IMG/VR virus record: IMGVR_UViG_3300024255_001563
Location: 1 to 64,000 of that record
Direction: 5' to 3' (one strand)
Source: a virus
DNA: 64,000 nt
Part shown: positions 10,378-63,750 of the stretch, piece after piece
Numbering within the stretch: the stretch's first letter is position 1
Layout of the letters: each line of letters begins with the position of its first letter
Notes under the pieces: model-generated
What the model was told of the DNA's origin: nothing
Databases searched by the model: none
The model's input: only the letters and a program-made list of their open reading frames with translations
Position numbers and translations under genes: made by a program

Positions 10378-10386
10378 TTTTCTTCC

Positions 10387-11896: not shown

Positions 11897-11897
11897 A

Positions 11898-13597: not shown

Positions 13598-13611
13598 ATT
13601 ATTTCCTTTCT

Positions 13612-47054: not shown

Positions 47055-47315
47055 ATGTTACCTAAACTATCAGAATCACAATTCTTTAAAGACGAACTAA
47101 AATTGTTTGAAATTCATATGCAAGATCTATCAAACGACAAAAAAATCGAAGCACAAAAAAAGATTGCAAGTCTTTTAGAACTAGTAGAATATGTAGACAC
47201 AGGTCATACACAAAAAATTGGATCTAGAATAACTCCGTCATTAATGGATAATACTAGATCGCAAATTGTAGATCTTAGAAAACAAATAGCAAAAATTTGT
47301 AATATTAAGATATAG
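47055..47315 (+). CDS. Hypothetical helical protein, 86 aa
   Basis: The product begins MLPKLSESQFFKDELKLFE one base after the cupin stop. It is predicted to be helical and charged, with no catalytic motif. It overlaps the S8 protease gene tail-to-tail by 11 bases. Function is unknown. Confidence 0.6.
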   Translation: MLPKLSESQFFKDELKLFEIHMQDLSNDKKIEAQKKIASLLELVEYVDTGHTQKIGSRITPSLMDNTRSQIVDLRKQIAKICNIKI

Positions 47316-50300
47316 TTATTGCGCCAAACATATTATTGTGGAATTCACATTGATAATAATATGTTCCTGTAGTTGTTGGTGTCCAGTATACTGATCCTAA
47401 AGTTGCACCTTGATTAGTTACACCTATGGCTTGATCGCCTGTACCTGTACCTTGAACAGTCTTGAGGTAGAAAGGATGTCCTGGTGCATTTACAGAGAAT
47501 TCAACGTAATCACCAACATTAAATGCTAGTGCAGGATCATTTCCGTTCACACTACCGTTTCTGTCACTACCGCTTAGAGTATAGTTTTGTGTATTATTAG
47601 CACTTACACTGATAACATAATCAGGTGCAACACTTGTATCTAGAATTGTTACATCTTCTGTTAAACTGCCAGTACTATTACCTAAACTATCTGTTGATGC
47701 AAGTGTAACAGTCATTGTTTCTGCACCTTCAGTTAATGAATCGTTTTCTAATGTAATAGTAAATGTGCCTGTGCCACTATTAATGTTAATTACACCGCCT
47801 AGTGTCGCCGCTGTAATATCATCTACGGTTACACCAGAGATAGAATACCCAACAGTTGTGCCGTCATCTACTCCGCTTGTAGATAGTGTATATGTAACAG
47901 TTGTTCCTTCTCCTACTTCGGTTGCATCAGCAGTTAATGAATCATATGTTATAGGAATCGATGTGTCTGCAATAACAATGTCAATACTATCTCGACCATT
48001 ATCTAATGATAGTGTCATAGTTTCTGGACCTTCTGTAGTAACATCGTTTGCAATGACAAATGCTATTGTATCTGTATTACTATTAACTGTAAAGTTGCCA
48101 GTAATACTACCACTACTCAAGTCACTTGCATCGATACCTGTTATTGTATATGCAATAGATGTGCCATTAGCTAGACTTGTAGTATCAAGTGTAATATTTA
48201 CTGTATCGCCTTCATCGACGGACACACTATTTGCACTTAGTTCATATGTTGGACCTAGACTTGTATCTAAAATTGTAATACTAATGTCATCTTCACTATT
48301 ATCTAGTGCTAGATTCATAACTTCAGATCCTTCTGTAGTAATATCTTGATCAAATGTGAAACTCAATGATGCAAAATTACTGCTAACAGTAAAGTTACCT
48401 GTTATAGATCCGCTTGATAAATCCGATGCATCTATACCTGTAATAGTATACGGAACAACCGTTCCGTTTGATACGTTTGTTGTGTTAAGTAAAATATTTA
48501 CACTATCGCCTTCATTAACAGTTGTTGAACCAGAGCTTAGTATATATGTAGGTGATCCTGTAATACTAGTATCATTAATTACAACACTTACATCTTCACC
48601 TAGTCCGTCTAATGTTAATGTTAATGATTCACTACCTTCTGTAGTAGCATCATCTGCAATATTTATTGCAAGTGTATCTGTATTTGAAGTTATAGTAAAC
48701 GATCCTGTTAGTGCTATATCTATATCAGATACATCAACACCTGTAATTGTGTATGGAATACTAGTAGCATCTGCTATATCTGTTGTTGTAAGAGTAATAA
48801 CAATCGAATCGCCTTCGTTTACATCTGGAACACTACTTGATAGACTATAGGTCGGCGGCGCTGTACTTGTATCTGCAATAACCACATTGTCTGATAAAGA
48901 AGTTGTTCCATTTCCGTTACTATCAGTTGCGTCTAATGTTATTATAAGAGTTTCAGCACCTTCTGTATCTAAGTCTTCTACAAGATCTATGCTTAATGTT
49001 GATGTATTACCTACAATTGTAAATATACCAGTTAAGCTTACTAAGTCTATATCATCTACCGATACCCCTGTAATTGTATATCCAACTGTTGTATCATCAG
49101 CAATTTGACTTGTATTAAGAGTAAACGTAATTGTATCGCCTTCATCTGCCGTTTCTACATCTGCTGCAAGACTTGTATATGTCGGAACAACAGGAGTTGT
49201 ACTAGTGTCTATAATAGTAACATCAACACTATCACCGCCATTGTTAAGTGCTAGTGTAATTGTTTCAGTGCCCTCTGTAGATAAGTCCTCTGCTAATGTA
49301 AAGCTAATATTAGAAGTATTATTTACAACTATAAAGCTTCCTGATATACTACCAGAAGTAAAATCATTAGCTGTTATTCCTGTACCTGTAATCGTATATT
49401 GAATTGGTGTTCCGTTTGGAATATTTGTAGTTGTTAGATCAACATTAAATGTTGCTCCTTCATTAACAGTTGTCGGAGAAGCTATAAGTGAATATGTAGG
49501 ATCTAGAGATGTATCATTAATAGTTATTGGATTTGATGTTACGCTAGTACCGTTTATGTTTAATGTTAATTCTTCAGCGCCTTCTGTAGTAGTATCTTCT
49601 GCAATTGCTAATTCAATAATTGATTTATTATTATATCCTGCATAAAAATTTCCATTTAAATCTACTGCGGTATCATTAACCTTTATAATAGAAAATATTG
49701 TATCAGGTCCTGAAGCAGACTCTTCCACTCCTAATCTATATGTATTTCCGTCTGTTGAAGTAAGTAATCCGTTTTCAGAAAAGGCAGAATCTGAATTATA
49801 ATCACCTACAATTGATGTATTCCAACGTAATCGATATCTATATCGTTGCCCGGGTGCAGAACTACCAGTTAATGTTCTAATTACTTCGTATGTATTACTA
49901 ACATACCTTTCTTGCCATTGATATAGATTACTAATATCTGAAGTTGTAATTCCCGAAAGTGTAAACGGAATGTCTGTTCCTTCGTCTATATTTACTGTTG
50001 TAAGAGTATATCTTACTGTGCCGCCTTCATCGATGCTAGTAACATTTTGAGATAGATAATATAGCGGAATAGTAGTAGAAAGCGATACAGTACCAGATAA
50101 CGATAAGGGTTGTTTTCCGTATTTCGAAAACATCATTCTATTAGGACTGCCCATTAATGATGTTTCGTATGCTGTATAATCTGAATCTAATCCTGTAGAA
50201 TATAATACATCTTTACTTTCAGCTACTAATTTGTTTTTTATTTGTAACGGAGTTGCATTAGGATCTACTTGTAAATGAAGTGCAATTAACCCAGCAACTT

Positions 50301-51642
50301 GAGGAGCTGCCATGCTTGTGCCGCCGATGTTTGCAATTTTATAACCCGGAGTAAAATAATCTCCTGCACTTGAACCAAATACATTAGTATCACTACAAGC
50401 ACTTATTATATCAGTTCCTGGGGCCCAGAAATTTGTACCAGGCCCTTTATTACTACTGCCTGCTGTTTTATCTCTAAATACTACACCATCTTGTTGTGTA
50501 GTACTATCTACATTACCTACAATAAATGCTTCTTCGCTATATGGACTAGATCCTTGATGATATTGAGTATTAAGTCCACTAAAAGTCACTTCGTTGTTGT
50601 AATCAAGGCCTGTAGGCACATCTATTTTATAATATTGATTTCCCGATGCAATACAAACATGTATTCCTGCATCAATCATGTCTTCAACCTCTGCATCAAT
50701 TTGCGCTAGTCTTACTGGAATTCTTCTACTTGTACCGCTGGGGCCAGTTAGTTGAGGAACTATACCATACGTTTGCCATAACTGATTTTGTGTTTCACCA
50801 AGATAAGACCATGGTGTTCCTCGATATGTCCCTCCAGTCGGGTCAGTAGTAGTAATTGTTCTACCGTATCCCCAACTCATATTTACTACTGTAGGACGTC
50901 CGTTAGTTTTTGCTAAATGCCATAATCGAATCACATCAAAGCAGTCAGTTGTGCTTATGCCTCCATTTGGATCCGAAGGCCCTTCTAATCCCGAAACTTT
51001 TACTGCATATATGTTTGCATTTTTAGCCCAGCCATATGTTTTACCTGCTGTAATTCCTGCGCAATGTGTTCCGTGGCCGTGATAATCAATATAATGTCCT
51101 GCAGGCATTGTGCCAGGTAATCCACTTTCGCTATACCAATCAATTTCTATAAATCTACTAGCACCTTGCATGTTTTGCCATTCTGGATGATCGGCACTAG
51201 TACCTGTATCTTGTATTACTACATCAACATCAGTTCCGTCTAGCCCATAAGGATAAAATCCATCCGGTGCAGTAGTTCCAGCAGAATACGAATTTGTATC
51301 ATCAATACACCTTCTAAGACCCCAGTTTGCTTTTGTATTATCTACTGCTGAAGTTTTATCAAAGTTAAATCCTTGTGTAAGATGAAGCATTTTATCTATA
51401 CCGTCTTGTTGATCTATAGGTACTTCCACTGCTTCTACTCTTGGATCATTTTTTAATCTTTCGGCTTCTTCGTCACTTAATAGCCAGTTAGTCATTCTCT
51501 TAGAGCCTGGTCTAGAATTCACAACGTCTACTGATCTTTCAGGTATAAATTCGCTTCCGGTTGAGCTAGATAATTCTGTATCTAATTCTTCTAAATTATT
51601 ATTTCTTTTTACAACTACTACATATTCTTTTTCGGTGCTCAT
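47305..51642 (-). CDS. Giant S8 protease with Calx-beta repeats and C-terminal cupredoxin
   Basis: The 1445-residue protein has an I9-like propeptide (about 1-75), a subtilase domain with catalytic Asp145, His190 (HGTHCAG) and Ser443 (GGTSMAAP), one degenerate and six regular Calx-beta-like repeats of about 100-110 residues (each ending DTS), and a C-terminal cupredoxin-like domain with GHPFYL and CEFHNNM (C-x2-H-x2-M). All catalytic residues are present. It has no signal peptide and lies beside fibre genes, so a tail or virion location is likely. It starts in an ATGA overlap with the gene upstream. It may cleave host surface proteins or process fibres. Confidence 0.85.
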   Translation of the reverse strand: MSTEKEYVVVVKRNNNLEELDTELSSSTGSEFIPERSVDVVNSRPGSKRMTNWLLSDEEAERLKNDPRVEAVEVPIDQQDGIDKMLHLTQGFNFDKTSAVDNTKANWGLRRCIDDTNSYSAGTTAPDGFYPYGLDGTDVDVVIQDTGTSADHPEWQNMQGASRFIEIDWYSESGLPGTMPAGHYIDYHGHGTHCAGITAGKTYGWAKNANIYAVKVSGLEGPSDPNGGISTTDCFDVIRLWHLAKTNGRPTVVNMSWGYGRTITTTDPTGGTYRGTPWSYLGETQNQLWQTYGIVPQLTGPSGTSRRIPVRLAQIDAEVEDMIDAGIHVCIASGNQYYKIDVPTGLDYNNEVTFSGLNTQYHQGSSPYSEEAFIVGNVDSTTQQDGVVFRDKTAGSSNKGPGTNFWAPGTDIISACSDTNVFGSSAGDYFTPGYKIANIGGTSMAAPQVAGLIALHLQVDPNATPLQIKNKLVAESKDVLYSTGLDSDYTAYETSLMGSPNRMMFSKYGKQPLSLSGTVSLSTTIPLYYLSQNVTSIDEGGTVRYTLTTVNIDEGTDIPFTLSGITTSDISNLYQWQERYVSNTYEVIRTLTGSSAPGQRYRYRLRWNTSIVGDYNSDSAFSENGLLTSTDGNTYRLGVEESASGPDTIFSIIKVNDTAVDLNGNFYAGYNNKSIIELAIAEDTTTEGAEELTLNINGTSVTSNPITINDTSLDPTYSLIASPTTVNEGATFNVDLTTTNIPNGTPIQYTITGTGITANDFTSGSISGSFIVVNNTSNISFTLAEDLSTEGTETITLALNNGGDSVDVTIIDTSTTPVVPTYTSLAADVETADEGDTITFTLNTSQIADDTTVGYTITGVSVDDIDLVSLTGIFTIVGNTSTLSIDLVEDLDTEGAETLIITLDATDSNGNGTTSLSDNVVIADTSTAPPTYSLSSSVPDVNEGDSIVITLTTTDIADATSIPYTITGVDVSDIDIALTGSFTITSNTDTLAINIADDATTEGSESLTLTLDGLGEDVSVVINDTSITGSPTYILSSGSTTVNEGDSVNILLNTTNVSNGTVVPYTITGIDASDLSSGSITGNFTVSSNFASLSFTFDQDITTEGSEVMNLALDNSEDDISITILDTSLGPTYELSANSVSVDEGDTVNITLDTTSLANGTSIAYTITGIDASDLSSGSITGNFTVNSNTDTIAFVIANDVTTEGPETMTLSLDNGRDSIDIVIADTSIPITYDSLTADATEVGEGTTVTYTLSTSGVDDGTTVGYSISGVTVDDITAATLGGVININSGTGTFTITLENDSLTEGAETMTVTLASTDSLGNSTGSLTEDVTILDTSVAPDYVISVSANNTQNYTLSGSDRNGSVNGNDPALAFNVGDYVEFSVNAPGHPFYLKTVQGTGTGDQAIGVTNQGATLGSVYWTPTTTGTYYYQCEFHNNMFGAITIS
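47633..49510 (-). repeat. Six Calx-beta-like coding repeats
   Basis: Six regular repeats of about 299-338 bp each end with an acidic GAT-ACA/T-AGT (DTS) codon group on the minus strand at about 47633, 47966, 48265, 48567, 48866 and 49204, with the last boundary near 49508. They encode tandem beta domains of the S8 protein. A degenerate seventh lies beyond 49510. Confidence 0.7.
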
Positions 51643-52823
51643 GTTATGCTTCCTGTATCTAATTCGACCCAGCTTCCGTTTTGATATGCTTCTATTTTAT
51701 TAGAAGTTGTATTATATATCATATCTCCATTTACTGAAATTAAACCATCTCTATCTGTATCACTAAAACTAGGCAATCTTAAAGGGCCGCCTGTAATAGA
51801 TACACCGTCGCCTGTACTTATTGTTAATCTTGCTGCTGTTTCTAATTCAGCATTTCCTATTCCTGTATTTTTTAATGAGCTTGTTTCTATTGTATTTGCA
51901 ATAAGATCTCCGAGTATTAAATCTGACCCGGATTGTATGCTAGGAGGATCTACAAAGGTTACTACTCCGCTACCGTTGGTTTGTAAAAATTGTCCAGTAT
52001 CACCGTCTGTTATTCCTAAATCAAAAAATTCAGTTGGCTTTGGTCTTACAAACGATCCGCTTGACTCTACATAAACATATAACAATTCGTCATCGCTATC
52101 AAACCATAAAGTGCCATTTGTAGCTTCAGATGGTTGAGACGGACTAACTGTAATATTTGCGCCGCTATCATCGTCGCCACCGCTGCCTGTTCCTGGCATA
52201 CTCACAGTTATAGTATTTCCCATAAGTGTATGATTTTGACACCAATAATAAAGTGTTTCAGGAGTTGAGGTTGTTACTGTAATTTGTACTTGTCTTGTTT
52301 TAGATCTTTGAAAATCTCTCCAATATTCTGCTTGTGTTACTTCTTCACCGTTTAGAATATATATTACATTTTCTAAATACGATGTGCCACCGCCGAGTTC
52401 ACCACTGGCGTTGTCTGAACTAAAATTTAACGGGTGTTGATTATTTGCGCCGCCTTCAGCATTTGGAAAATATACATTTGTTTGATCTGTTTGATCAAAA
52501 ACATAAGTGTAACCTACTACCATTGATATTGCTGGTTTATACTCTCCGTTTAGCACATACTTGTTACCGGAATCACCACCTTGTGGACCTGTAATAGTTA
52601 CATTATACTTTACAGTTGCTATCTCTTTTGCAGCAATATTTCTAGGTAACGCTTCGTCAGTGAGTACTTCAAATCCGCCTCGGTTTATAGTTCTGCCACT
52701 ATAAACTCTTAAAGTATTTGTTTCTTTACTAAAAAATACCTCACCGCTAGAACCTGTAGCTCTATCTAAAAATTCTTTTGCTCTAGGAATTATCCTTATA
52801 CGATCAACAATAGGTGATGCCAT
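51639..52823 (-). CDS. Tail or fibre protein with cupredoxin-like domain
   Basis: The 394-residue protein begins MASPIVDRIRIIPRAKEFLD. It has a GEVFFSKETNTLRVYSG module near residue 30, then a cupredoxin-like domain (NNQHPLNF, YYWCQNHTLMGNT with C-x2-H-x2-M), then a NGTLWFDSDDELLYVY module and a C-terminal NKIEAYQNGSWVEL module. It starts from a GATAAATA late promoter and is translationally coupled to the protease. A virion role is likely. Its C-terminal half has no known domain. Confidence 0.65.
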   Translation of the reverse strand: MASPIVDRIRIIPRAKEFLDRATGSSGEVFFSKETNTLRVYSGRTINRGGFEVLTDEALPRNIAAKEIATVKYNVTITGPQGGDSGNKYVLNGEYKPAISMVVGYTYVFDQTDQTNVYFPNAEGGANNQHPLNFSSDNASGELGGGTSYLENVIYILNGEEVTQAEYWRDFQRSKTRQVQITVTTSTPETLYYWCQNHTLMGNTITVSMPGTGSGGDDDSGANITVSPSQPSEATNGTLWFDSDDELLYVYVESSGSFVRPKPTEFFDLGITDGDTGQFLQTNGSGVVTFVDPPSIQSGSDLILGDLIANTIETSSLKNTGIGNAELETAARLTISTGDGVSITGGPLRLPSFSDTDRDGLISVNGDMIYNTTSNKIEAYQNGSWVELDTGSIT

Positions 52824-52846: not shown

Positions 52847-52854
52847 TATTTATC
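52847..52854 (-). promoter_or_regulatory. T4-type late promoter before the cupredoxin fibre gene
   Basis: The minus strand reads GATAAATA. The leader of about 24 bases contains TGGAGA before the ATG at 52823. Confidence 0.6.
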
Positions 52855-52860: not shown

Positions 52861-54390
52861 TTAATCTAGTTGTCCTGTATATTCCCATAATATATTTTCT
52901 TGTTTAATAGTTTCTGTAAACTGATCAAATCTATAATTAGCACGATATATTCTTTCTACTCTATCATGTAATTCTTTAAGTTCTTGCTGTGCTTGATTTA
53001 TACTAAAATCGTTTAGATATTTCGAACAAACTTCAGGTGAAAGTTGACCAGTTTGTATTAATATATAGCTCCACAATTGCCATCCTGCTGCTCCAGGATA
53101 TGACGGAAAATCATAAAGTGTTGGCATTTTAGTTTTACACATTTCTCGAATCATTTTTGAAAATTCTGTTTCAATTGCACCGCTTGTAATGTATTTCCAA
53201 AATTCACTATCTGTACGCCCGCCCATATAATGCGCTACAAGAAAATCTTTAAAATCGTCAAACATTTTGTTTACTCTTTTATTGTATGCTTTAATACATG
53301 CAGGATTTAAAGTTGTTTCTAAATCATCTTTTAAGTATTCAAATGCAAAGTATTTAAGTTGTACAATTGCACCATGAATTGAAGTTGCTTCTAAAGGTTC
53401 TGCAAAAGTACTACTAAGCCCAATGGTTAAACAATTCTTAACCCATGTATTTTCTAGTCTTCCAGTATCAAAAGTAAATGGATCTCTTAATGGTTCAATT
53501 TTTCTACCAAGAGTTTTCTCAATTTCATTTAACGCTTCGTCGTCACTTATAAAATCACTACAATATGTATAGCCGCAGCCTTTCCTTGTTTGTATAGAAG
53601 CTTGCCACATCCAGCCAGCTGATAGCGCCTGAGCTTCTGTATAAGGATCTGGTTTTGTAGTGTCGTCGTACTGTAAGAAGAAAGGTATAGCTCTGTCAAC
53701 AGGTAAATTTTCTTTATAACAAATCCACTTTGTTCCTAATTTATTAGCTAGTATTCGTCTAAATCCTGAACAATCTATATAAAAATCAGAGTCTATAATT
53801 GTCTCATTATCTAATATCAGCTTGTCTATTCTTCCCTTTTCGTCTTGTGTTACTTCATTTATTATTGCATCAATTAATTCAACATTTTCGTAACGTGTGC
53901 AAACTTTTTGTAAGTAATCAGCTACTAGTCTTGCATCAAAATGCCATGCATGTGTCTGTTCTTCGTAAGTTCCTGTTCTTTTAAGTATAGGTGATGTTCT
54001 AGCTTCCATCAAACACCCAAAATATGTACCTCTATGTAAATTTTGTTTATCGTTTACTGCTAAGAATGAAGTTACACTATCAAGTAAATTCAAAGCAGTT
54101 GGAGTTCCGTCTATCGGCGCAAAGTAATTATAATCCTTTACCCAATCTTTATGCAATATGCCATACTTAGGCATTGCGGCTGTCTTTCTTATAAAATCTA
54201 ATGGATCAATACCAAAGTCACCGTAAGTTCCTAATATAAAATCCATTAGTTCTCCAGTTACTCCTTCACCGGCTCCGAGTATTCCGATTTTACTTGACGC
54301 AACTATTTTAATTTTTGCATTTGAATTATGTGCTAAAAATAAAGCCGATATCCATCCTGCTGTTCCACCGCCGACTACTGTAATTTCCAT
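52861..54390 (-). CDS. Flavin-dependent halogenase-like protein (1), WxWxIP variant
   Basis: The 509-residue protein has an FAD-binding GxGxxG (VVGGGTAGWISAL, residues 5-17), a GAGEGVTG block, and a Lys75 (AAMPKYGIL) aligned with the catalytic lysine of PrnA-type halogenases (Lys79). The typical WxWxIP motif is GWMWQAS (260-266), so Ile-Pro is replaced by Ala-Ser. The family chlorinates or brominates indoles with FADH2, but substrates are variable. It may hydroxylate, halogenate or be inactive. It is divergent from the oxygenase at 54471. Confidence 0.75.
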   Translation of the reverse strand: MEITVVGGGTAGWISALFLAHNSNAKIKIVASSKIGILGAGEGVTGELMDFILGTYGDFGIDPLDFIRKTAAMPKYGILHKDWVKDYNYFAPIDGTPTALNLLDSVTSFLAVNDKQNLHRGTYFGCLMEARTSPILKRTGTYEEQTHAWHFDARLVADYLQKVCTRYENVELIDAIINEVTQDEKGRIDKLILDNETIIDSDFYIDCSGFRRILANKLGTKWICYKENLPVDRAIPFFLQYDDTTKPDPYTEAQALSAGWMWQASIQTRKGCGYTYCSDFISDDEALNEIEKTLGRKIEPLRDPFTFDTGRLENTWVKNCLTIGLSSTFAEPLEATSIHGAIVQLKYFAFEYLKDDLETTLNPACIKAYNKRVNKMFDDFKDFLVAHYMGGRTDSEFWKYITSGAIETEFSKMIREMCKTKMPTLYDFPSYPGAAGWQLWSYILIQTGQLSPEVCSKYLNDFSINQAQQELKELHDRVERIYRANYRFDQFTETIKQENILWEYTGQLD

Positions 54391-54445
54391 AAATTATCCT
54401 TTATATAAATATGTATCTAAAAAATTAACTGGGTACTTTATTTAT

Positions 54446-54453
54446 GGTAAATA
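54446..54453 (+). promoter_or_regulatory. T4-type late promoter before the 54471 oxygenase
   Basis: GGTAAATA predicts +1 near 54459, directly before AAGGAG (54460-54465) and the ATG at 54471. Confidence 0.55.
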
Positions 54454-54470
54454 CTCTGCAAGGAGTTCAT

Positions 54471-55070
54471 ATGGAATTAAATTTTGAATATCTTTTTTCA
54501 ACATATCTATCTACTTTAAAAAATCTTAATATCGACAATGATTCTTTAGAAGAGTATGCATACTTGCAAAGAGAAAAAGATAACGGTGTAGAAAAAAGTA
54601 ATTGGAAGGGCTGGCAAAGCGATACTTTAGAAGAACAAAATTCTGAAGTTGAAAAGCTATGTTCTATAATAGAAGACGCATGTAATGAATTAAAAAATAA
54701 CTTAGGATTTAAAAAACACTTAATTCCAAAAATAAACAATATATGGCTCAATATTAATTCTAACGGATCTTTTAATCGTCCACATTTACATCCTGGTAGT
54801 ATATTTTCTGGAACGTATTATATAAAAAAATCAGCAGAGGATGGAAATATAGTATTTACTACACCTTGTGTACAGCAACAATATCATATAGAAAAAGAGT
54901 TAATAGACCAATTTAATCCTACAACATCAAGTGTATATAGTATTCCCACAGACCCGGGTACAATGATACTATTTCCGTCATGGGCAGAGCATTTTGTTGA
55001 ACCCAACAACACAGATGTAGATAGAATTTCTATTGCGTTTAACGTAGCATTATTAGAGGATAACACATGA
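54471..55070 (+). CDS. Putative 2OG-Fe(II) oxygenase (TIGR02466-like)
   Basis: The start at 54471 is supported by AAGGAG; an ATG at 54444 lies inside the promoter region. The 199-residue product has NSNGSFNRPHLHPGSIFSG (iron ligands His-x-His), DPGTMILFPSWAEHFVEP (distal His) and RISIAFN (distal Arg). The enzyme class hydroxylates using 2-oxoglutarate. It is followed by a halogenase gene in an ATGA overlap, so the two may act on one pathway. Confidence 0.75.
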   Translation: MELNFEYLFSTYLSTLKNLNIDNDSLEEYAYLQREKDNGVEKSNWKGWQSDTLEEQNSEVEKLCSIIEDACNELKNNLGFKKHLIPKINNIWLNINSNGSFNRPHLHPGSIFSGTYYIKKSAEDGNIVFTTPCVQQQYHIEKELIDQFNPTTSSVYSIPTDPGTMILFPSWAEHFVEPNNTDVDRISIAFNVALLEDNT

Positions 55071-56548
55071 AAAATTTAGTGATCGCAGGCGGCGGCTCTG
55101 CGGGCTGGTTAACAGCACTTTTTGTAAAACAACTTTTTCCAGATCATAATGTAACGTTAGTACAAAGTAGCGAAATAGGAACTATCGGCGTCGGTGAAGC
55201 AACTACTCCTCATCTACCAAATTTTCTTGATAGTTTAAAAATACATCCTGTAGATATAATACCGCATATTAAAGGCAGTATAAAAAATGGTATCAGTTTT
55301 GAGAATTGGAATGGCGATAATAAAAAATATATGCATGCATTTCATGATAAAATTATAGATTTTCAAATTCCTAATATATTTGATCGTAACTGTACTGATT
55401 ATCATCATAGAGAAATAATTTCAAAAAAATTATCTATGAAAGAATATCTTTATCAACAAAAAATAGCATATGAAAATAAAGTAGATATCGAAAATGTAAA
55501 TTGGGCATTGCACTTTGATGCAAAAGAGTTTGCTAATTATTTGCAAAAAATAGCAATAGATAGAAATATAAAATTAATAGATGATGAAATAGTAGGGTTT
55601 GAAAATGATGAAAAAAACTTTATTACAAAAGTAATACTAAAAAATAATAGAAGTGTAAGCTGTGATTTTATATTCGATTGTACTGGATTTAGAAGAGAAA
55701 TAATAGGAAAGTTTTACAAAGAAAAATGGAAGAGTTATAGATCTTACATGCCTATGAAAAAAGGCATTCCATTTTGGCTAGAATCAAAAGAAAGTTTGCC
55801 ATCATATACTTCTAGTATTGCATTGAAAAATGGATGGAGTTGGCAAATACCGCTGCCTCATAGAACTGGTAGTGGTTATATTTTTGATTCTGATTACATA
55901 AGTGTAGACGAAGCACTAAATGAAGCAGAAGAATTCTATAAACAAAAACTGGAAGTAAGAAAAGTAATAGATTTTGATCCTGGAAGATTTGAAAATCTTT
56001 GGATTAAAAACTGCATTGCTGTTGGATTATCAGGCAGTTTTTTAGAACCTTTAGAATCAACCTCTATTTGGCAAACTATTGATCAATTAGAAACGTTAAA
56101 ACATTTCTTAAACGTCCTTACAAAAGACGAAAATGATTCAAGAAGTTTGTATAATGAAATGATGAATAACAGTATTGATCATAAAAGTTATTTTATATAT
56201 CTTCATTATTACACGAAAAGATCAGATAGTGATTTTTGGAAAGAATTTAAAGAAAAAAATCCTATGCCAGAAGAACTAAAAAATCTTTATAATTCTCTAA
56301 AAGATGGAAGCTTTAGATATTTCGATATGTTAAATCACAAAACTCCAGGAACATTTGCAGTATCAAGTTTTACACAAGTAGGATACGGGCTTAATATGAT
56401 TGACAATCTAGATAATTCAGTATATAATAAAATTCAACCTTCTGTAGAAGAATATAAAAATATAATTAATTATCATAATGATATGATTGCGATAGACCAT
56501 AGACATTTTTTAGAAAGACAATATGAAAATATTAGGAATAAATTTTAA
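55067..56548 (+). CDS. Flavin-dependent (tryptophan-type) halogenase (2)
   Basis: The 493-residue protein has GGGSAGWLTAL (FAD, residues 8-18), GVGEATTP, catalytic Lys73 (SIKNGISFENW) and the intact WxWxIP motif (WSWQIP, 257-262). A good match for PrnA/RebH-type halogenases, except that the substrate cannot be read. It overlaps the oxygenase and the carbamoyltransferase on either side, making a three-gene operon of tailoring enzymes. Reduced flavin would have to come from the host or another gene. Confidence 0.85.
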   Translation: MKNLVIAGGGSAGWLTALFVKQLFPDHNVTLVQSSEIGTIGVGEATTPHLPNFLDSLKIHPVDIIPHIKGSIKNGISFENWNGDNKKYMHAFHDKIIDFQIPNIFDRNCTDYHHREIISKKLSMKEYLYQQKIAYENKVDIENVNWALHFDAKEFANYLQKIAIDRNIKLIDDEIVGFENDEKNFITKVILKNNRSVSCDFIFDCTGFRREIIGKFYKEKWKSYRSYMPMKKGIPFWLESKESLPSYTSSIALKNGWSWQIPLPHRTGSGYIFDSDYISVDEALNEAEEFYKQKLEVRKVIDFDPGRFENLWIKNCIAVGLSGSFLEPLESTSIWQTIDQLETLKHFLNVLTKDENDSRSLYNEMMNNSIDHKSYFIYLHYYTKRSDSDFWKEFKEKNPMPEELKNLYNSLKDGSFRYFDMLNHKTPGTFAVSSFTQVGYGLNMIDNLDNSVYNKIQPSVEEYKNIINYHNDMIAIDHRHFLERQYENIRNKF

Positions 56549-58235
56549 TTCACATTGTTCTGCTTGTCTAATAGTAGATAATGAATTAATATATTTTAAT
56601 CAAGAAGAAAGACTATCTAGATTAAAAAACGATAGCGGTATTCCTTATCTTTGTCTAGAAGAAATAAAAAAAATAGAAACAAAAATAGATTTATTACTTG
56701 TAACAGGTTATAATTATAATATTAATAATGGTTTTTATTTGTTAAACTTTCTTAATAAAAGCGGTTTTAATATAGAAGGGTGGTACGGTTATTATAAATC
56801 ACACCATTTAGTTCATGCTGCAAAGGCTGTAAACGATAGCGGATTCGATGATGCTCTTGTGTTTGTACAAGATGGAAAAGGATCATCGTATATGCTATCA
56901 AACGGTTATGAAAGTATAGAAACTACTAGTATATTTGAGTATTCAAAAGATAAAGGCTTTTCTTGTGTTTATAAAAATTTGTTTTCTCACTATCATACAG
57001 CAAGAAATTTAGAAGTTGGAACAGATATATTTCCTATTATAGATCACGAATATGAAAAGGCTTATGCGTTTCCAACAGATCGCCTGTATGAAGATACAAA
57101 ATTTAACATTTCTAATCACTTCGATTTAGGATTATTATATACTATAACAGGACAGTGTTGCGGATTTACTGATGATGGCGGCAAATTAATGGGACTTCAA
57201 AGTTACGGAACTAACGACAGCGAATTACCAGATGTACTCTTTGATGATTATAAAATTAACATGGACAGTTTTATACTAGATCAGTCTAATATATATAATA
57301 ACGAATTTAACTATAAAAAATATCCATATCTAGCAATAGAACAAAAGAAGAAAAACTTTGCCTATAAAGTACAAAAATCTTTTGAAGAGAAACAACATAA
57401 TTTAATATCAAAATATCTAAAGGAAACAGGAAAAAAGAATTTAGTAATGTCTGGAGGAACTGCATTAAATGTAGTAGGAAATGGTAAACTGTTATCTAAA
57501 TTAGACTCTGATATTAATATTTTTATTGAACCTGTATGCGGCGATGAAGGTAATAGTATAGGAATTTGCAATCTGTATCTATTAGAAGACAACATAAAGA
57601 CATCTTTCAGTATTTACAATTGTGGGACAGATCCCGAATACAATTATAATTTACTTGATTTTGAATCTGAAAAAAAAGTTACTGATCAAGATATTGCTGA
57701 ACTTATTGCCAAAGGCGCAATTGTATCGTATTTCCACGGAAAGGGAGAAGCTGGTCCTAGAGCATTAGGAAATAGAAGTTTATTATTTAATCCTAGTATA
57801 ATAGATGGTAAAGATATAGTTAATCAAGTAAAAGGAAGAGAAAGCTTTAGACCGTTTGCATGTAGTATACTTGAAGAACATGCAAAAAACTGGTTTGACT
57901 TTAAAGGTCAAAATTCTTCCCCTTATATGATGTTTGCCCTTGAGTGCAATAAAGATGTAGAAAAAATAATTCCTAGTGTAATACACGTTGATGGAACTTG
58001 TAGAGTACAAACTGTAAATATAGAACAAAATAAAAATTATTATAATTTAATTAACGAGTTTTATAAAATTACAAATATTCCTTTACTTTTTAATACATCA
58101 TTTAATCTAGCAGGCGATCCTATTGTGCATACAGTACAAGACGCATTAGAATCTATAAGAAATAGTAAAATAGAATATTTATATCTACCCGAAATTAACA
58201 CCTTAATACATAGTGAGAACCTTTATGAAAACTAA
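56523..58235 (+). CDS. Carbamoyltransferase, NodU/CmcH family (copy 2)
   Basis: The 570-residue protein has the N-terminal Kae1-like ILGINFNSHCSACL, the metal-binding HHLVHAA block (near residue 93), and C-terminal GEAGPRALGNRSLLF and PLLFNTSFN. This is full length for the family. It is clearly diverged from copy 1 at 1978-3480. It lies in an operon with halogenase and oxygenases, which would fit carbamoylation of a small molecule or glycan. It overlaps the halogenase by 26 bases. Confidence 0.88.
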   Translation: MKILGINFNSHCSACLIVDNELIYFNQEERLSRLKNDSGIPYLCLEEIKKIETKIDLLLVTGYNYNINNGFYLLNFLNKSGFNIEGWYGYYKSHHLVHAAKAVNDSGFDDALVFVQDGKGSSYMLSNGYESIETTSIFEYSKDKGFSCVYKNLFSHYHTARNLEVGTDIFPIIDHEYEKAYAFPTDRLYEDTKFNISNHFDLGLLYTITGQCCGFTDDGGKLMGLQSYGTNDSELPDVLFDDYKINMDSFILDQSNIYNNEFNYKKYPYLAIEQKKKNFAYKVQKSFEEKQHNLISKYLKETGKKNLVMSGGTALNVVGNGKLLSKLDSDINIFIEPVCGDEGNSIGICNLYLLEDNIKTSFSIYNCGTDPEYNYNLLDFESEKKVTDQDIAELIAKGAIVSYFHGKGEAGPRALGNRSLLFNPSIIDGKDIVNQVKGRESFRPFACSILEEHAKNWFDFKGQNSSPYMMFALECNKDVEKIIPSVIHVDGTCRVQTVNIEQNKNYYNLINEFYKITNIPLLFNTSFNLAGDPIVHTVQDALESIRNSKIEYLYLPEINTLIHSENLYEN

Positions 58236-58842
58236 TTATATTATAATTGACGATTTTTACGATAATCCCTGGGAAATAAGACAACGTGCTTTAGAATTAG
58301 AATATAAAAAACTAGAAGGTTCTACATATCCTGGTTTAAATTCTTTAGGATTTTTATACAATGATGAAATGCATAAAAATATTGAAGGCATCTTAAATAC
58401 AAAATTAGAAAATCCAAGAGACATGCAAGCTGGATATTTTCGTATTTCTCACGAAGATGCAGATGCTGCACAAGATATACATATAGATCCCGACTTTGAC
58501 TATGGAGGTGTATTGTTTTTAAATCCGCCTAATCAATGTACAAACGATGCTGGTACTAGTTTTTATACACACAAAATATTAGGAATCGACAAAGGTCCAA
58601 AAAATTTAGAAGAAGTTAAACAACTAGGATTTCCAGGTTATGAAAATTTTGTAAACGAAATGATTTATGGCGATTGTCTTGATAGGTCAAAATGGGAACG
58701 ATATTGCAGAATACCTTACAAATTTAATAGACTGGTATTATTTGATAGCCATTTATGGCATAGTCATGGAGTTAATTTTGGAAATAATTTACAAAATTCT
58801 AGATTAGTACAATTATTTTTTTATAAAAGGTTAAAAAAGTAA
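58225..58842 (+). CDS. DUF6445-like / 2OG-oxygenase-like protein
   Basis: The start at 58225 overlaps the carbamoyltransferase stop. The 205-residue product has IHIDPDFDYGGVLFLNPP (HxD iron motif) and RLVLFDSHLWHSHGVNFG (distal His), followed by a possible Arg in NSRLVQLFF. The same arrangement is known from small proteins associated with halogenases. It probably is an iron-dependent oxygenase-type protein, but the family has no certain activity. Confidence 0.68.
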   Translation: MKTNYIIIDDFYDNPWEIRQRALELEYKKLEGSTYPGLNSLGFLYNDEMHKNIEGILNTKLENPRDMQAGYFRISHEDADAAQDIHIDPDFDYGGVLFLNPPNQCTNDAGTSFYTHKILGIDKGPKNLEEVKQLGFPGYENFVNEMIYGDCLDRSKWERYCRIPYKFNRLVLFDSHLWHSHGVNFGNNLQNSRLVQLFFYKRLKK

Positions 58843-58843
58843 A

Positions 58844-59410
58844 TTAGTATACCCATGAAACATAACTATATCTAGTTCCTTTTGTTACTGGTTCTACTTT
58901 GTGAGGATACATAAAGTTACTAGGAAAAATTAAAACGGCGCCTGGAGGAATATCTATTACCGTATCCCACATAACAAACTCGCCACCTTCGTAATCATTA
59001 TTTAACCCGCCTACTATACTTAAAATTGGTATTCCGTTTATACCAGGCCCAAAAAGATCATGTATATGATCACAATGTAACTTCATTTTTTTCTTTTCAC
59101 TATACCGATTAAATCTTAACGGACTGTATCCACGCCACCCTGCAAACCATTTATGATCTAAATCATTAATAATATAATTTTCTAAGGCTTTGTAAAGATT
59201 ATCTTGTATTGTTTGTTTTTCTTTTATATCACTCCAAGACATTTGTAAATCATCTACAAACGTAACTCTTTCTTGTGTTGTATTATTATTAAAATAATGA
59301 TCTTCCCATAGCTCATCATTTTTCAAACTTTTTACTGTATTATTACAAGTATCTTCATCAATAATATTTTCATAAACTTTTATATATTTGTCAATTGTAT
59401 TGTTAATCAT
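58844..59410 (-). CDS. 2OG-Fe(II) oxygenase (prolyl-4-hydroxylase-like)
   Basis: The 188-residue protein has MKLHCDHIHDLF (HxD), EGGEFVMWD, FPSNFMYPHKVEPV (distal His) and TRYSYVSWVY (distal Arg), a complete P4H-type set. It is convergent with the 58225 gene and overlaps the next oxygenase by four bases. It may hydroxylate fibre or host proteins; the target is not known. Confidence 0.82.
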   Translation of the reverse strand: MINNTIDKYIKVYENIIDEDTCNNTVKSLKNDELWEDHYFNNNTTQERVTFVDDLQMSWSDIKEKQTIQDNLYKALENYIINDLDHKWFAGWRGYSPLRFNRYSEKKKMKLHCDHIHDLFGPGINGIPILSIVGGLNNDYEGGEFVMWDTVIDIPPGAVLIFPSNFMYPHKVEPVTKGTRYSYVSWVY

Positions 59411-60024
59411 ACGTTTAGCTCCGATAAAAAGAATTCGCTTCCGATTGAACCTTTTATAAATGTATTAAATGATAAACTCATTCTAGATTCCCTTTCTTGA
59501 TCTTCTTGCACAATATCTACATAATGTAAAAGACTGCTCGGAAATAATACTAACATTCCTGTGCTTACAGGATAATACCAGGTGCTAGCATTATGAATAT
59601 TATAAGTAACAGGTTCAATTTCTAGAGGATTAAAAATGCCTTTATCAAACCATATACTATCTGTATTTGGATTTGCACTAATATAATATACTCCACTTAC
59701 GAGACTGTTGGTATGAGCATGTTTATGATGCATTTCTCCTGGAAAAGTTTTATTACACCACGACTGTGTTATATGTAAAGATACCTGGTTATTAGGTTGA
59801 TAAACTTCCTTAAAATAAAACTGAACATGCTTGTCAATTTCATTACGCAAAGTAGAAAGTTCTTTTCTTTCTAGAAGGTATGAATCTACTGATCTATGAT
59901 TAAACTTATTTTGTTGAAAATCTTGAGATTTTATAAAATTAAATTCGTCTTGATGTGGTATGTAGTCTAACCCTGTTGTATAAACAGGTGTTGGAAATAA
60001 ATTATGTATGTTTGTATCTGCCAT
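59407..60024 (-). CDS. 2OG-Fe(II) oxygenase (TIGR02466-like)
   Basis: The 205-residue protein has MHHKHAHTNSLVSGVYY (candidate iron motif), MLVLFPSSLLHYVD (distal His) and ESRMSLSFNTF (distal Arg). The ATG is six bases after the last A of a TAAATA late element, predicting a leaderless late message. It lies divergent from another oxygenase at 60064 and overlaps the P4H-type gene downstream. Confidence 0.78.
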   Translation of the reverse strand: MADTNIHNLFPTPVYTTGLDYIPHQDEFNFIKSQDFQQNKFNHRSVDSYLLERKELSTLRNEIDKHVQFYFKEVYQPNNQVSLHITQSWCNKTFPGEMHHKHAHTNSLVSGVYYISANPNTDSIWFDKGIFNPLEIEPVTYNIHNASTWYYPVSTGMLVLFPSSLLHYVDIVQEDQERESRMSLSFNTFIKGSIGSEFFLSELNV

Positions 60025-60029
60025 AAAAT

Positions 60030-60037
60030 TATTTAGT
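60030..60037 (-). promoter_or_regulatory. T4-type late promoter, leaderless geometry
   Basis: The minus strand reads ACTAAATA. The predicted +1 is the A of the ATG at 60024. It is divergent from a plus-strand TATAAATA 14 bases away. Confidence 0.62.
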
Positions 60038-60050
60038 TATATATGTATAT

Positions 60051-60058
60051 TATAAATA
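60051..60058 (+). promoter_or_regulatory. T4-type late promoter, leaderless geometry
   Basis: A perfect TATAAATA. The predicted +1 is the A of the ATG at 60064. Another in-frame ATG at 60043 precedes the promoter and is not expected to be used. Confidence 0.68.
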
Positions 60059-60063
60059 CTTTT

Positions 60064-60576
60064 ATGAATGTAATTGATAATTTTTTAGACAAAAAAGAAT
60101 TCCAACAAATACAAGATATTTGTTTAGGGGCAAACTTTCCGTGGTTCTGTAATAGTAATATTGTTCGTCCTGAAAATAAAGATGAATTTCTTAATTTTTA
60201 TAATTATCAATTTACGCACACTTTATATCGAGATTATTCCCCTTGTAGTAACTATTTCAATGATATTTGCGATCCTTTATTTTTCAAGATTAATCCTGCA
60301 TCAATTATGAGAGTAAAAGCAAATCTTATACCGAGAGCAGATAAAAATGTAATACACGAGTATCATGAAGACATTACAAATTTTAAAGGAAAGACTGCTA
60401 TCTACTATGTAAACACTAATGATGGTAAGACATATTTTAAAGACCATCAATCTGTCGAGGCTGTAGAAAATAGATTAGTAATATTTGATAGTAATCTATT
60501 ACATACAGGCAGTACGTGTACAGATCAGCGCACTCGAGTTGTTTTAAATTTAAATTATTTCGAATGGAATAATTAA
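60064..60576 (+). CDS. Putative 2OG-Fe(II) oxygenase-like protein
   Basis: The start at 60064 gives 170 residues. The sequence has IHEYHEDITNFKGKTAIYYV (HxD-like His-Glu-Asp), NRLVIFDSNLLHTGST (distal His) and QRTRVVLNLNYF (distal Arg). It is a compact beta-helix enzyme of the phage 2OG type. It is convergent with and one base from the 60577 oxygenase gene. Late expression fits its promoter. Confidence 0.72.
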   Translation: MNVIDNFLDKKEFQQIQDICLGANFPWFCNSNIVRPENKDEFLNFYNYQFTHTLYRDYSPCSNYFNDICDPLFFKINPASIMRVKANLIPRADKNVIHEYHEDITNFKGKTAIYYVNTNDGKTYFKDHQSVEAVENRLVIFDSNLLHTGSTCTDQRTRVVLNLNYFEWNN

Positions 60577-61224
60577 TTAAACAAATCTAGGTCCTCTTAC
60601 CCAAATAACTATTGATTTTCGAACACCTTTTGTTACAGGTGCAACTCTATGCATTACAAAAGACGGAAATAAGATACATTGTCCTTTTGCACAAGGTACT
60701 ATGTCATTCTTTGGATCTGAAGTTCTTCCCATCATAAACTCGCCACCTTCAAAATCGACACCGGGTTCGTTTAATAATAATGTTAATGATAATTTACGTT
60801 GATGAGGATCTAGTTGCTGTTGACCTGTTTCTAAATCAATATGCCAGTCATATGTGCCGTTATCTTCAGCATGATATTCTGTATATTGAAATGCTTCGTA
60901 TCCATTTAAATCAAAGTTATAAAAATCTTCATTTACAGCTTCGATTATACTATTTAATCTTTGGAATATAAAATTATTATCTTCGTTCGGAAACTGCCAT
61001 CCAAGTTTAGATCTTCTAACGTCTTCTAATTTTCTTCCGTCCTGTTTAGCTGGATCATTATCTCTGTTTCCAACTTTTCCATCTTCAAGCTTTTGTGATG
61101 ACATTAATACTTGAATTTTTTCTAATTCTTCGTTAGAAAAAGACTCCATCCAATAACAGTACGGAGAAAAATATTGTGATCGTTGTATGGGGTTGTTTAT
61201 TAGTCTTTTAAATCTGCCAGACAT
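60577..61224 (-). CDS. PKHD-type 2OG-Fe(II) hydroxylase
   Basis: The 215-residue protein has the full ligand set: YDWHIDLETG (HxD), LSLTLLLNEPG, EGGEFMMGR, CILFPSFVMHRVAPV (distal His) and VRKSIVIWVRGP (distal Arg). This is close to PiuC/PKHD hydroxylases. The ribosome-binding region and start codon lie inside a 12-bp inverted repeat, suggesting translational control. The target is unknown. Confidence 0.85.
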   Translation of the reverse strand: MSGRFKRLINNPIQRSQYFSPYCYWMESFSNEELEKIQVLMSSQKLEDGKVGNRDNDPAKQDGRKLEDVRRSKLGWQFPNEDNNFIFQRLNSIIEAVNEDFYNFDLNGYEAFQYTEYHAEDNGTYDWHIDLETGQQQLDPHQRKLSLTLLLNEPGVDFEGGEFMMGRTSDPKNDIVPCAKGQCILFPSFVMHRVAPVTKGVRKSIVIWVRGPRFV

Positions 61225-61310: not shown

Positions 61311-61871
61311 TTATAGTTCAGCTTGACCTTCAGGATCAGCTAAAGGTGTAAATGCTTGCCATTCGCCTGTACTATCATTCCATGCAAACTTTTCATCTCC
61401 TGATTCAGCTGATGCCGGCACAGGTTGTGTAATATCTGTTTGAACTGCATGCGGAGTTATAATACTATCGTGGCTTACCCAGTTAGTAGATATTTCGTCC
61501 CATAAATGATCGTTGCCATCTGTAGGATATGCTACAGGAGGAACATGCACACCGAGAGCATCATCAAACACCCACGAAGGAAACCCGCCATCGGCTCTCC
61601 AGTTAGCTTTTAAAGTATTCTTTTTATCTACTACTTCAGCATCTGTCATTTCTCTTAGAACCCAGTCATCTGATGCACTAGTACGATCAGCACTTACACT
61701 ATAAGCATGATCGTTGGTTTGATACACTCCTTCAACTGGTCTTTCAGTTCTAGTAAAAGGAACAAATGTTTTACCTTCTTTAAAGCTATCTGGTGCCGCA
61801 TCTAAGTTACTTTTTTCTATAGGATGATTTACAGCATTACCGTGTTCGTCTATTTCAATATATAATTCCAT
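61311..61871 (-). CDS. Hypothetical tail-fibre-associated protein
   Basis: The 186-residue protein begins MELYIEIDEHGNAVNHPI, has internal beta-like and aromatic blocks (NWRADGGFPSWVF, HLWDEISTNWV) and a C-terminal WNDSTGEWQAFTPL. It resembles phage tail-fibre or chaperone-type proteins in composition. A TAGGAG site precedes the ATG. It lies between a glycine-rich fibre gene and an oxygenase gene. No firm family. Confidence 0.6.
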   Translation of the reverse strand: MELYIEIDEHGNAVNHPIEKSNLDAAPDSFKEGKTFVPFTRTERPVEGVYQTNDHAYSVSADRTSASDDWVLREMTDAEVVDKKNTLKANWRADGGFPSWVFDDALGVHVPPVAYPTDGNDHLWDEISTNWVSHDSIITPHAVQTDITQPVPASAESGDEKFAWNDSTGEWQAFTPLADPEGQAEL

Positions 61872-61883: not shown

Positions 61884-62885
61884 TTATTGATCGTTGGTGT
61901 TAGTGCCGGGCCATGATCTTGGGATTGTAGTTCCCCAAATGATTCTTACTACGCCTCGACCACCGTCGCCTGAACTAGAAGGCCAACTTGTACCTGGGCC
62001 GCCACCGCCGCCTCCGTACGCACCACCTCGTATATTATTTGAACTTTCGCCAGTTCCGCTCCATGGATTTTGTCCATAGTAGCCTCTCTCGCCACTGGAG
62101 CCTCCTAATCCACCGCCACCTTGTGGCGAACCTGATGTTGACCATGGAGTATACTGACCGTTACCGTTAGGTCCTTGTCCGTATATACCAGTGCCGCCTC
62201 CGGCGCCTGTACCGAATGTTGATGAGTAATTTCTGCCGCCAGCAGCTCCTCCAGAATATGGGTGCGGATATTCATTTACGTTGCCGCCACGTCCTGTGTA
62301 GCCGCCTGCGCCGCCTCCGCCAGTCCAATCAGTTGAATTGCCGCCTCCGCCGCCGCCGTCGCCGTTATATCCTCCACCGCGTCCGTTATTTCTCGGGCCG
62401 CCTGTTTGACCTTGTGCAGATCCGCCGCCATAGCCGCAAACAGTATTAGTACTTTGGAAATAGCTGTTGCCGCCATTTTGACCATTGCCGCCGCCGTAGC
62501 CAACAACAACTGTATAACTTCCGCCTGGTGTTACAGGTATAGTATTTTTCCAACCTAAACCTGCGCCAGCGCCGCCTGGGTTAGCCCAACTATTCTGGCC
62601 TCCGCCGCCGCCGCCGATAGCAAGCACGTTTACTTCGTAAACTTGTGAAGGTGCAACCCATGTATACGAACCTGGGTTCGTATAGTTTTGTTGTCCTGGT
62701 GGAATGGGTGGATTTGTCAGCGGTAGCGGTAGCCATTCACTGCCGTCATAACCTTCAAAATTGCCATCGCTTGTATTCCATCTCATCATGCCGGCGCTTG
62801 CTCCGCCTGGGCGTTGACCTGTTGTACCAGAAGCAACTTTTAAATATCCGGTGTCATTTATTGTCGTATTCTTTAAACTAGCCAT
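61884..62885 (-). CDS. Glycine-rich tail-fibre/adhesin-like protein
   Basis: The 333-residue protein begins MASLKNTTINDTGYLKVASG, has a MMRWNTSDGNFEGYDGSEW module, and a central and C-terminal part of more than 150 residues rich in GGGGG and GGxGG blocks with Asn, Ser and Tyr. Such glycine-rich regions form stacked polyglycine-II folds in phage adhesins and bind host receptors. An AAAAGGAAG site precedes the ATG. It probably lies at the tail-fibre tip; its receptor is unknown. Confidence 0.72.
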   Translation of the reverse strand: MASLKNTTINDTGYLKVASGTTGQRPGGASAGMMRWNTSDGNFEGYDGSEWLPLPLTNPPIPPGQQNYTNPGSYTWVAPSQVYEVNVLAIGGGGGGQNSWANPGGAGAGLGWKNTIPVTPGGSYTVVVGYGGGNGQNGGNSYFQSTNTVCGYGGGSAQGQTGGPRNNGRGGGYNGDGGGGGGNSTDWTGGGGAGGYTGRGGNVNEYPHPYSGGAAGGRNYSSTFGTGAGGGTGIYGQGPNGNGQYTPWSTSGSPQGGGGLGGSSGERGYYGQNPWSGTGESSNNIRGGAYGGGGGGPGTSWPSSSGDGGRGVVRIIWGTTIPRSWPGTNTNDQ

Positions 62886-62886: not shown

Positions 62887-63750
62887 TTAATTTCTTCCTT
62901 TTAATGTTTCAACTTCAGCAGTAAGTTCTTTTACTGCTTCGATAAGATATGCAGTCAATTTAGTATATGTAATCCCATCTGCGGTTTTATCATCGTTGTA
63001 TTTAACCACATTAGGAAGTATTTTAGCTACTTCTTCCGCAATCAAGCCAGGTTCTTCTGTTGCACTGCCGTCTAATCTATCGTATGTTACACCTACTAAT
63101 CTCTTAATTGAGTTTAGAGCGCCTTCGATAGGTCTTACATTTTCTTTATACGTTATACTTGATGTTTCAGTAATACTTGTAAATCGTCCTGAACTTGGAG
63201 TTGATGATCCAACTGTAGTACCGTCAATTGCTCCGCCATTGATATCAACACTAGAACTTAATAAATTACCGCTAAATCTTGTTGCACTAATTGTGCCGTT
63301 ACTTGGCGTAAAACTAAATTTACTATTACTGGTTGTAACTGCTGTAATAATTCCGCTTGTTGATGTAATTAAAGTTGGGTAATAAGTAGTTCCACTTGTT
63401 GTGTTATTACTTACTGATACGTTAGCAGCAGCCCAACTTAATGTTCCGCTACCGTTTGTTTTTAAAAAATATCCGTCAGTGACGCCGCTTGCAGGTAGTG
63501 TATAAGTTATATTCGAACCAACTGTTCCAGGTACAGCAAGTGCAACATAATTTGAACTATCTGAATCTGTTAGTCTTAGTTGACTGTTTGATTGTAACGA
63601 AACATGTGCATTAGATCGAACATCACCTGTACCATTTGGTTCGAAAATAATATCATCGTTTGGCTCGATGGTTTGTAGTCTATTATTTTGAGCCGTAAAT
63701 GTACCTAAAACCGGTCCACCTTGGATACTTGTACTAATTCTTCTTGGCAT
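62887..63750 (-). CDS. Tail-fibre protein with S74-type intramolecular chaperone
   Basis: The 287-residue protein begins MPRRISTSIQGGPVLGTFTAQ. Its last 85 residues form a Peptidase_S74-like chaperone: SITYKENVRPIEGALNSI, then GLIAEEVAKILPNVV and YLIEAVKELTAEVETL, a terminal coiled coil. Such domains trimerise fibres and then cleave themselves off. The catalytic Ser at the start of the chaperone block appears kept. The upstream part is beta-repeat-like, as in trimeric fibres. An AGAAGGAAAA site precedes the ATG. Confidence 0.85.
   Translation of the reverse strand: MPRRISTSIQGGPVLGTFTAQNNRLQTIEPNDDIIFEPNGTGDVRSNAHVSLQSNSQLRLTDSDSSNYVALAVPGTVGSNITYTLPASGVTDGYFLKTNGSGTLSWAAANVSVSNNTTSGTTYYPTLITSTSGIITAVTTSNSKFSFTPSNGTISATRFSGNLLSSSVDINGGAIDGTTVGSSTPSSGRFTSITETSSITYKENVRPIEGALNSIKRLVGVTYDRLDGSATEEPGLIAEEVAKILPNVVKYNDDKTADGITYTKLTAYLIEAVKELTAEVETLKGRN

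Follow-up and report, generated by a model that had tools for sequence, protein, structure and literature searches.

Conserved halogenase, carbamoyltransferase and oxygenase genes between the fibre genes of an uncultured contractile-tailed phage: a putative late cassette for modifying virion proteins

To assess the possible function of a cluster of halogenase, carbamoyltransferase and oxygenase genes in viral DNA, we analysed a window consisting of bases 1-64000 of the 200,843-base IMG/VR virus record IMGVR_UViG_3300024255_001563. The cluster is an island of nine genes that encodes two flavin-halogenase-family proteins (Hal1 and Hal2), a carbamoyltransferase (Cbm) and six 2-oxoglutarate (2OG)-Fe(II)-oxygenase-like proteins (Ox2 and Ox5 to Ox9). 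Packaging, sheath and baseplate genes identified the source as a contractile-tailed phage, and its late-promoter motif, together with gene families like those of cyanophages, points to the T4-like marine group. Our results favour, with a probability of about one half, a reading in which the island is a cassette that is expressed late and modifies fibre or adhesin proteins of the virion after their translation, the substrate, the chemistry and the halogenase activity all being putative. We arrived at this reading because the locus combines late-promoter motifs, linkage to fibre genes and a conserved set of side-chain-modifying enzymes without a scaffold-making enzyme.

A previous inspection of the letters of this DNA (the sequence-only reading) had placed nine open reading frames (ORFs) at 52861-61224, and all nine were present at these positions. 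Pfam and PHROG matches agreed with its assignment of two halogenase-family proteins, one carbamoyltransferase and six oxygenase-like proteins within 8.4 kb, and its overlapping run of four genes was recovered as Ox2-Hal2-Cbm-Ox5. Likewise, hidden Markov model searches returned the eight oxygenases that it had counted in the window, which include the outlying OxA and OxB, and no more than these across the whole record. Six of the eight thus lie inside 8.4 of 200.8 kb, far above random placement. What that reading overlooked were a second carbamoyltransferase-like gene and two cupin genes. Coordinates of all features are collected in Table 1.

Catalytic residues were kept in most of the cassette enzymes. 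Hal1 and Hal2 both showed a whole-domain match to PF04820, the GxGxxG motif for flavin adenine dinucleotide, and the EPLE motif that carries the active-site Glu. Furthermore, the active-site Lys (K79 in PrnA and VirX1, K73 in Hal2) and the EPL motif were invariant in 17 of 17 aligned phage halogenase-family proteins, and the WxWxIP motif is present in Hal2 as WSWQIP. A flavin reductase (PF01613) was searched for in the whole record and was not found; therefore, reduced flavin would presumably come from the host. Cbm contains the N- and C-terminal carbamoyltransferase domains, with the GPRALGNRS, GDEG and NTSFN motifs conserved. The second carbamoyltransferase-like gene is found between a DnaB-like helicase gene and a primase-like gene, and the GPRALGNRS string is absent from it.

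Four of the island oxygenases (Ox5, Ox6, Ox8 and Ox9) keep the HxD...H...R set. The matches of Ox5 and Ox8 to named oxygenase models were weak; the relatives of Ox8 also keep HxD...H...R, and the HxD, H and R residues of Ox5 were invariant among relatives with 26-31% identity. An AlphaFold model of Ox5 was of modest quality (mean predicted local distance difference test, pLDDT, of 54), and most of its top PDB fold matches were prolyl-hydroxylase-type 2OG oxygenases, pointing with modest confidence to a 2OG oxygenase-like fold that most resembles protein prolyl hydroxylases. PHROG labels these oxygenase-looking families differently, that of Ox8 (phrog_274) as "DNA endonuclease V" and that of Ox5 (phrog_1644) as "minor coat protein", and both labels are frequent in cyanophage annotations. 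The cupin genes beside OxA and OxB belong to phrog_7851, which is labelled cysteine dioxygenase, and the same pairing occurs in phage S-SSM7 (L145:11849-12861).

T4-like phages are established to use a late promoter of the TATAAATA type (see also PMC3037559). The motif NATAAATA occurred 49 times in the record, compared with a mean of 142 (lowest 81) for letter-permuted motifs, and 29 of its 49 occurrences were at gene starts, compared with 20% or less for each permuted motif. Apart from positions in front of genes, the motif is thus avoided, a pattern that a true promoter would be expected to give. The heptamer ATAAATA was depleted about 3-fold record-wide except at gene starts, and it offers a simple aid for mapping late genes in such uncultured phages. 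In the divergent intergenic region of the island, TATAAATA at 54404-54411 (+) faces Ox2 and CATAAATA at 54439-54446 (-) faces Hal1, the latter overlapping the start of the longest Ox2 ORF. For Ox2, a start at 54471 with a ribosome-binding-site-like AAGGAG is likelier than one at 54444. The same pair of motifs faces both genes in the IMG/VR locus L022, at 47-53% protein identity. Finally, the late motif found at 60051-60058 suggests that Ox8 starts at 60064.

To determine the conservation of the cassette, IMG/VR was searched with Hal2, Hal1, Cbm, Ox9 and the neighbouring T61 and T62. In L022 and in a second locus, L053, order and orientation were kept as Hal1(-)/Ox2-Hal2-Cbm(+)/Ox6-Ox7(-)/Hal3(-)/Ox8(+)/Ox9(-)/T61-T62-T63(-), with approximately 43-56% identity per enzyme. 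A third halogenase-family gene (Hal3) is thus added and Ox5 is missing in these two loci, and the fibre-linked genes T61, T62 and T63 remain adjacent to the cassette. Gene order agreed partially in three further loci (L054, L014 and L021) and also, as far as the contigs reach, in L012 and L051, and L052 contains a rearranged version. More remote relatives of Hal2 are likewise accompanied by oxygenases: among Hal2 loci exceeding 5.7 kb in length, 27 of 29 had at least one oxygenase gene no more than 6 kb from the halogenase (loci not dereplicated). T62 was 66-67% identical between cassette phages, compared with approximately 45-55% for the enzymes, and its sequence had no match in the PDB.

A single enzyme, Hal2, was exchanged between close strains. 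Relative to IMGVR_UViG_3300047382_000601, DNA identity was approximately 97-99% over the cassette and 67-76% in Hal2, the drop falling exactly at the ends of the gene; that strain has, in addition, an oxygenase-like gene about 0.5 kb long inserted between Ox5 and Ox6. A Hal2 allele of this type, with 63% protein identity, is also present in a second strain, 3300040806_002115, and in the pair L053 and L051, Hal2 (77%) and Ox2 (67%) were more divergent than Hal1 (92%). Synonymous divergence between close strains was raised in Ox7 (0.24) and T62 (0.19), compared with 0.02-0.12 for the other genes. The ratio of nonsynonymous to synonymous substitution rates was 0.04-0.38 in orthologous cassette genes of close strains, and the cassette genes are under purifying selection in all orthologous pairs compared. 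Exchange of one enzyme within a fixed cassette, seen in the few strains compared, is what would be expected if enzyme specificity were under changing selection.

A megablast search of the island DNA against sequenced phages gave no match, and therefore all comparisons with named phages were made at the protein level. Halogenases were present in 68-77 phage records, all with less than 60% identity to Hal1 and Hal2. By raw count, in 8 of the 18 loci read a halogenase gene was separated by no more than about 1.5 kb from a gene for a tail fibre, tail-fibre assembly, an adhesin tip or a collagen-like protein (Syn10, P-SSM2, S-SRM01, P-RSM6, Sf-FR1, DSL-LC01, S-CREM1 and S-WAM1). The order in S-SRM01 is distal tail-fibre gene, tail-fibre gene, halogenase gene, adhesin-tip gene. 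In Syn10, a protein annotated just as hypothetical matched PDB 6QGM end to end and is VirX1, the viral flavin-dependent halogenase that has been characterised. Upstream of the VirX1 gene, at a distance of 2.9 kb, is a phrog_863 tail-fibre-assembly gene; between the two lies a second halogenase gene, whose start is 1.4 kb past the phrog_863 gene. A phrog_7084 protein is encoded directly downstream of a VirX1-type halogenase in five cultured cyanophages (L130:8571-9359, L132:10006-10872, L146:11063-11929, L147:9550-10380 and L149:9627-10400) and also occurs in the cassette relative L052 (L052:4158-4880), making it a candidate partner of the halogenase.

The VirX1 locus resembles the island in its nearby tail-fibre-assembly gene, neighbouring second halogenase and oxygenase genes, and VirX1 shares PF04820, phrog_2928 and the same active-site Lys and Glu with Hal2. 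However, the two proteins are only about 28% identical, and no carbamoyltransferase was found beside VirX1. The enzyme combination is not unique to this record, as S-SSM7 and other cultured marine phages have all or much of it. In S-SSM7, a Synechococcus phage, nearly the same set (a halogenase, two Nol-like carbamoyltransferases, 2OG oxygenases and a cupin) is encoded upstream of the neck genes, but with one halogenase instead of two, adjoining heptose and sugar genes and another order; it is not in orthologous synteny. The Pelagibacter phage HTVC008M encodes the closest cultured relative of Hal2 (45%) and several 2OG oxygenases within a virion gene block; unlike the island, this block has one halogenase and no carbamoyltransferase and is beside terminase and neck genes rather than fibre genes. 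A scan of genomes in bacterial assemblies with closer halogenase sequences gave 13 records, some of which resembled misbinned phage contigs, and established no fibre-like parallel.

Taken at its full extent, the proposed mechanism would begin with production of the cassette enzymes late in infection, alongside the fibre and tail proteins, and these enzymes would act on residues of newly made fibre or adhesin proteins. Side chains would receive hydroxyl groups from the 2OG oxygenases, Cbm could cap these hydroxyls or those of sugars, and Hal2, with reduced flavin supplied by the host, would add halogens to exposed Trp or Tyr. T62, which is glycine-rich and has many invariant Trp and Tyr residues, would be the first candidate target. 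Such modification might affect how the virion binds its receptor, how stable the fibre is or how the virion is recognized, and the repertoire of modifications could change through swaps of single enzymes. Flavin halogenases that brominate Trp inside a peptide, i.e., a proteusin brominase and lanthipeptide halogenases, are known from the pathways of ribosomally synthesized and post-translationally modified peptides (PMC10858898, PMC10286304) and offer a precedent for how Hal2 may work, differing in that they belong to leader-guided peptide pathways.

Several observations weigh against the virion-protein reading, in addition to the raw nature of the adjacency count. Neither the proximity of the genes nor their late timing reveals which substrate is used, and the AlphaFold model of T62 was too poor to use (pLDDT of 41). 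Hal1 may not halogenate and could be a family relative of doubtful activity, because the WxWxIP motif is not retained in Hal1 (WMWQAS) or in its orthologues (WYWEAS, WYWEAN). Ox2 and Ox7, like OxA and OxB, carry HxH instead of HxD, with the distal H and R kept; this replacement looks general for the PF13759 members examined here. The exact pair of late motifs was present in only some of the homologous loci, others having variants such as CTAAATA and GTAAATA. Finally, some halogenase genes are located elsewhere: that of S-B64 is among DNA genes, the nearest annotated fibre gene in S-H38 is 6.6 kb away, the Syn1/S-PM2/S-RIM44-type copy is among or near hli, tRNA and talC genes, and CP21 is also an exception. 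Annotation of the P-TIM40 locus was too sparse to call.

The sequence-only reading had left two options, action on fibre residues or production of a small halogenated compound. Of these, the fibre option is the more probable, given the late motifs, the conserved place between fibre genes and the fibre-adjacent halogenases of cultured phages. Its likeness to natural-product tailoring held for the enzyme classes and not for the locus: scaffold-making enzymes (AMP-binding, ketosynthase and YcaO) were sought in the record and none was found, in searches whose controls matched, which counts against a self-contained natural-product pathway. The enzymes might still modify a host metabolite, e.g., free Trp, indole, a pigment, a siderophore or a signalling molecule, into a product that protects the infected cell or shifts its metabolism. 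Free Trp and natural products are the classical substrates of PF04820 enzymes, a broad set of small aromatic compounds is accepted by VirX1 (PMC8407142), protection from antibiotics has been suggested as the role of cyanophage PrnA (PMC2984593, PMC9964418), and the same genome encodes DAHP synthase of the aromatic pathway. Nevertheless, we consider this explanation rather unlikely, as it fits poorly with the late motifs and the place between fibre genes, and six oxygenases and one carbamoyltransferase, with no export gene seen in the block, would make an odd pathway. An alternative that we judge less probable still is that the carbamoyltransferase and oxygenases decorate sugars, either those of fibre glycans or those of the host envelope, and thereby mask receptors or exclude superinfection. 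Glycans would not be expected to be halogenated, the island has no sugar-pathway or glycosyltransferase gene, and the record has just two sub-threshold Glycos_transf_2 matches; in its favour, TobZ relatives carbamoylate sugars, the S-SSM7 set is accompanied by phosphoheptose isomerase, heptose kinase and epimerase genes, and a glycosyltransferase gene directly follows the halogenase gene in DSL-LC01.

Two further explanations appear very improbable. Cbm could cap 5-hydroxymethylcytosine in phage DNA while the oxygenases act on bases, since a carbamoyltransferase of the same two-domain family, from a phage-like metagenomic contig, was proven to modify 5-hydroxymethylcytosine (MetaGPA, PMC8670742). 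That enzyme co-occurs with a hydroxymethylase of the thymidylate synthase family, whereas no such gene (PF00303) was found in this possibly incomplete record, in a search whose control matched in 9 genomes. DNA-repair labels on some phage 2OG proteins and the position of the second carbamoyltransferase-like gene beside replication genes would agree with a role in DNA modification, but the island itself is among late fibre genes and not replication genes; a search of the record for Tet_JBP gave no match and was uninformative, its control likewise giving none. Similarly, the proposal made for cyanophage 2OG oxygenases, that they draw down 2OG (PMC3037559), would here mean that the oxygenases mainly mimic or relieve nitrogen stress and that the halogenase is an unrelated passenger. 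It is hard to reconcile with six divergent enzymes, which are not amplified copies of one, or with the late motifs and the ordered conservation with fibre genes.

Table 1. Positions of the island genes and of related or neighbouring features in the window.
Feature	Position	Strand	Description
Second carbamoyltransferase-like gene	1978-3480	-	27% identical to Cbm; outside the island
OxA	12678-13244	-	outlying PF13759 oxygenase; abuts cupin gene 13244-13645
OxB	46051-46695	+	outlying PF13759 oxygenase; abuts cupin gene 46692-47054
Subtilase and Calx-beta-like repeat tail protein	47305-51642	-	flanks the cassette
FibA	51639-52823	-	fibre/baseplate-like protein downstream of Hal1; late motif 52847-52854 (-)
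Hal1	52861-54390	-	PF04820 flavin-halogenase-family protein, E=4e-90
Hal1/Ox2 divergent intergenic region	54391-54443		late-promoter motif on each strand
Ox2	54444-55070 (likely start 54471)	+	PF13759 2OG oxygenase-like; HxH...H...R
Hal2	55067-56548	+	PF04820 flavin-dependent halogenase family, E=2e-106; GxGxxG, Lys73, WxWxIP and EPLES motifs
Cbm	56523-58235	+	NodU/TobZ-type O-carbamoyltransferase; PF16861 (E=7e-59) and PF02543
Ox5	58213-58842	+	DUF6445 (E=8e-13), 2OG oxygenase-like; HxD, H and R invariant
Ox6	58844-59410	-	PF13640 2OG oxygenase; HxD...H...R
Ox7	59407-60024	-	PF13759 2OG oxygenase-like; HxH variant
Ox8	60043-60576	+	phrog_274 (E=5e-52), DUF6445 (E=1e-5); HxD...H...R
Ox9	60577-61224	-	PF13640 2OG oxygenase; HxD...H...R
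T61	61311-61871	-	unannotated protein adjoining fibre genes; syntenic in other cassette phages
T62	61884-62885	-	glycine-rich (PF21722) fibre/adhesin-like protein; invariant Trp and Tyr residues
T63	62887-63750	-	tail-fibre tip protein with Peptidase_S74 chaperone domain

Outside the island, an 1829-amino-acid tail-fibre protein encoded downstream of the window (L003:8174-13663; record positions 71174-76663) has six CBM5/12 carbohydrate-binding matches and adjoins a 1241-amino-acid laminin-G/lectin baseplate-wedge protein. Genes for DAHP synthase, S-adenosylmethionine synthetase and a vitamin-uptake-type transporter are close together at 9580-12557 (-), and are possibly auxiliary metabolic genes tied to aromatic amino acids and methylation.

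The enzyme families and their occurrence in T4-like marine phages were already known (PMC3037559, PMC2984593, PMC9964418, PMC9602691). However, in the open-access literature searched we found no description of the cassette as a conserved unit, of its late control, of the swap of a single enzyme or of the location of VirX1-type halogenases beside fibre genes, and no discussion linking halogenases to phage tail fibres; PMC2984593 repeats the idea of antibiotic protection and PMC3037559 merely lists the halogenase gene. A broader and more speculative proposal, for which our confidence is low, is that marine phages run a modular halogenase, hydroxylase and carbamoyltransferase workshop that decorates receptor-binding fibres, that they diversify their surface by swapping a modifying enzyme such as Hal2 and not the fibre, and that the native substrate of VirX1 is a tail-fibre protein.

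Modification of fibres is directly testable, because phages with such loci (Syn10, S-SRM01, P-RSM6, S-SSM7 and HTVC008M) exist as cultured isolates. Among the accessory genes of ocean phages, those for halogenases and 2OG oxygenases are common yet unexplained, and they are usually ascribed to antibiotic protection or metabolic reprogramming. If the cassette does modify fibres, the way in which these genes are read would change, the product would be, to our knowledge, the first virion protein to carry halogen or carbamoyl groups, and VirX1, a biocatalyst of interest, would gain a natural substrate to test.

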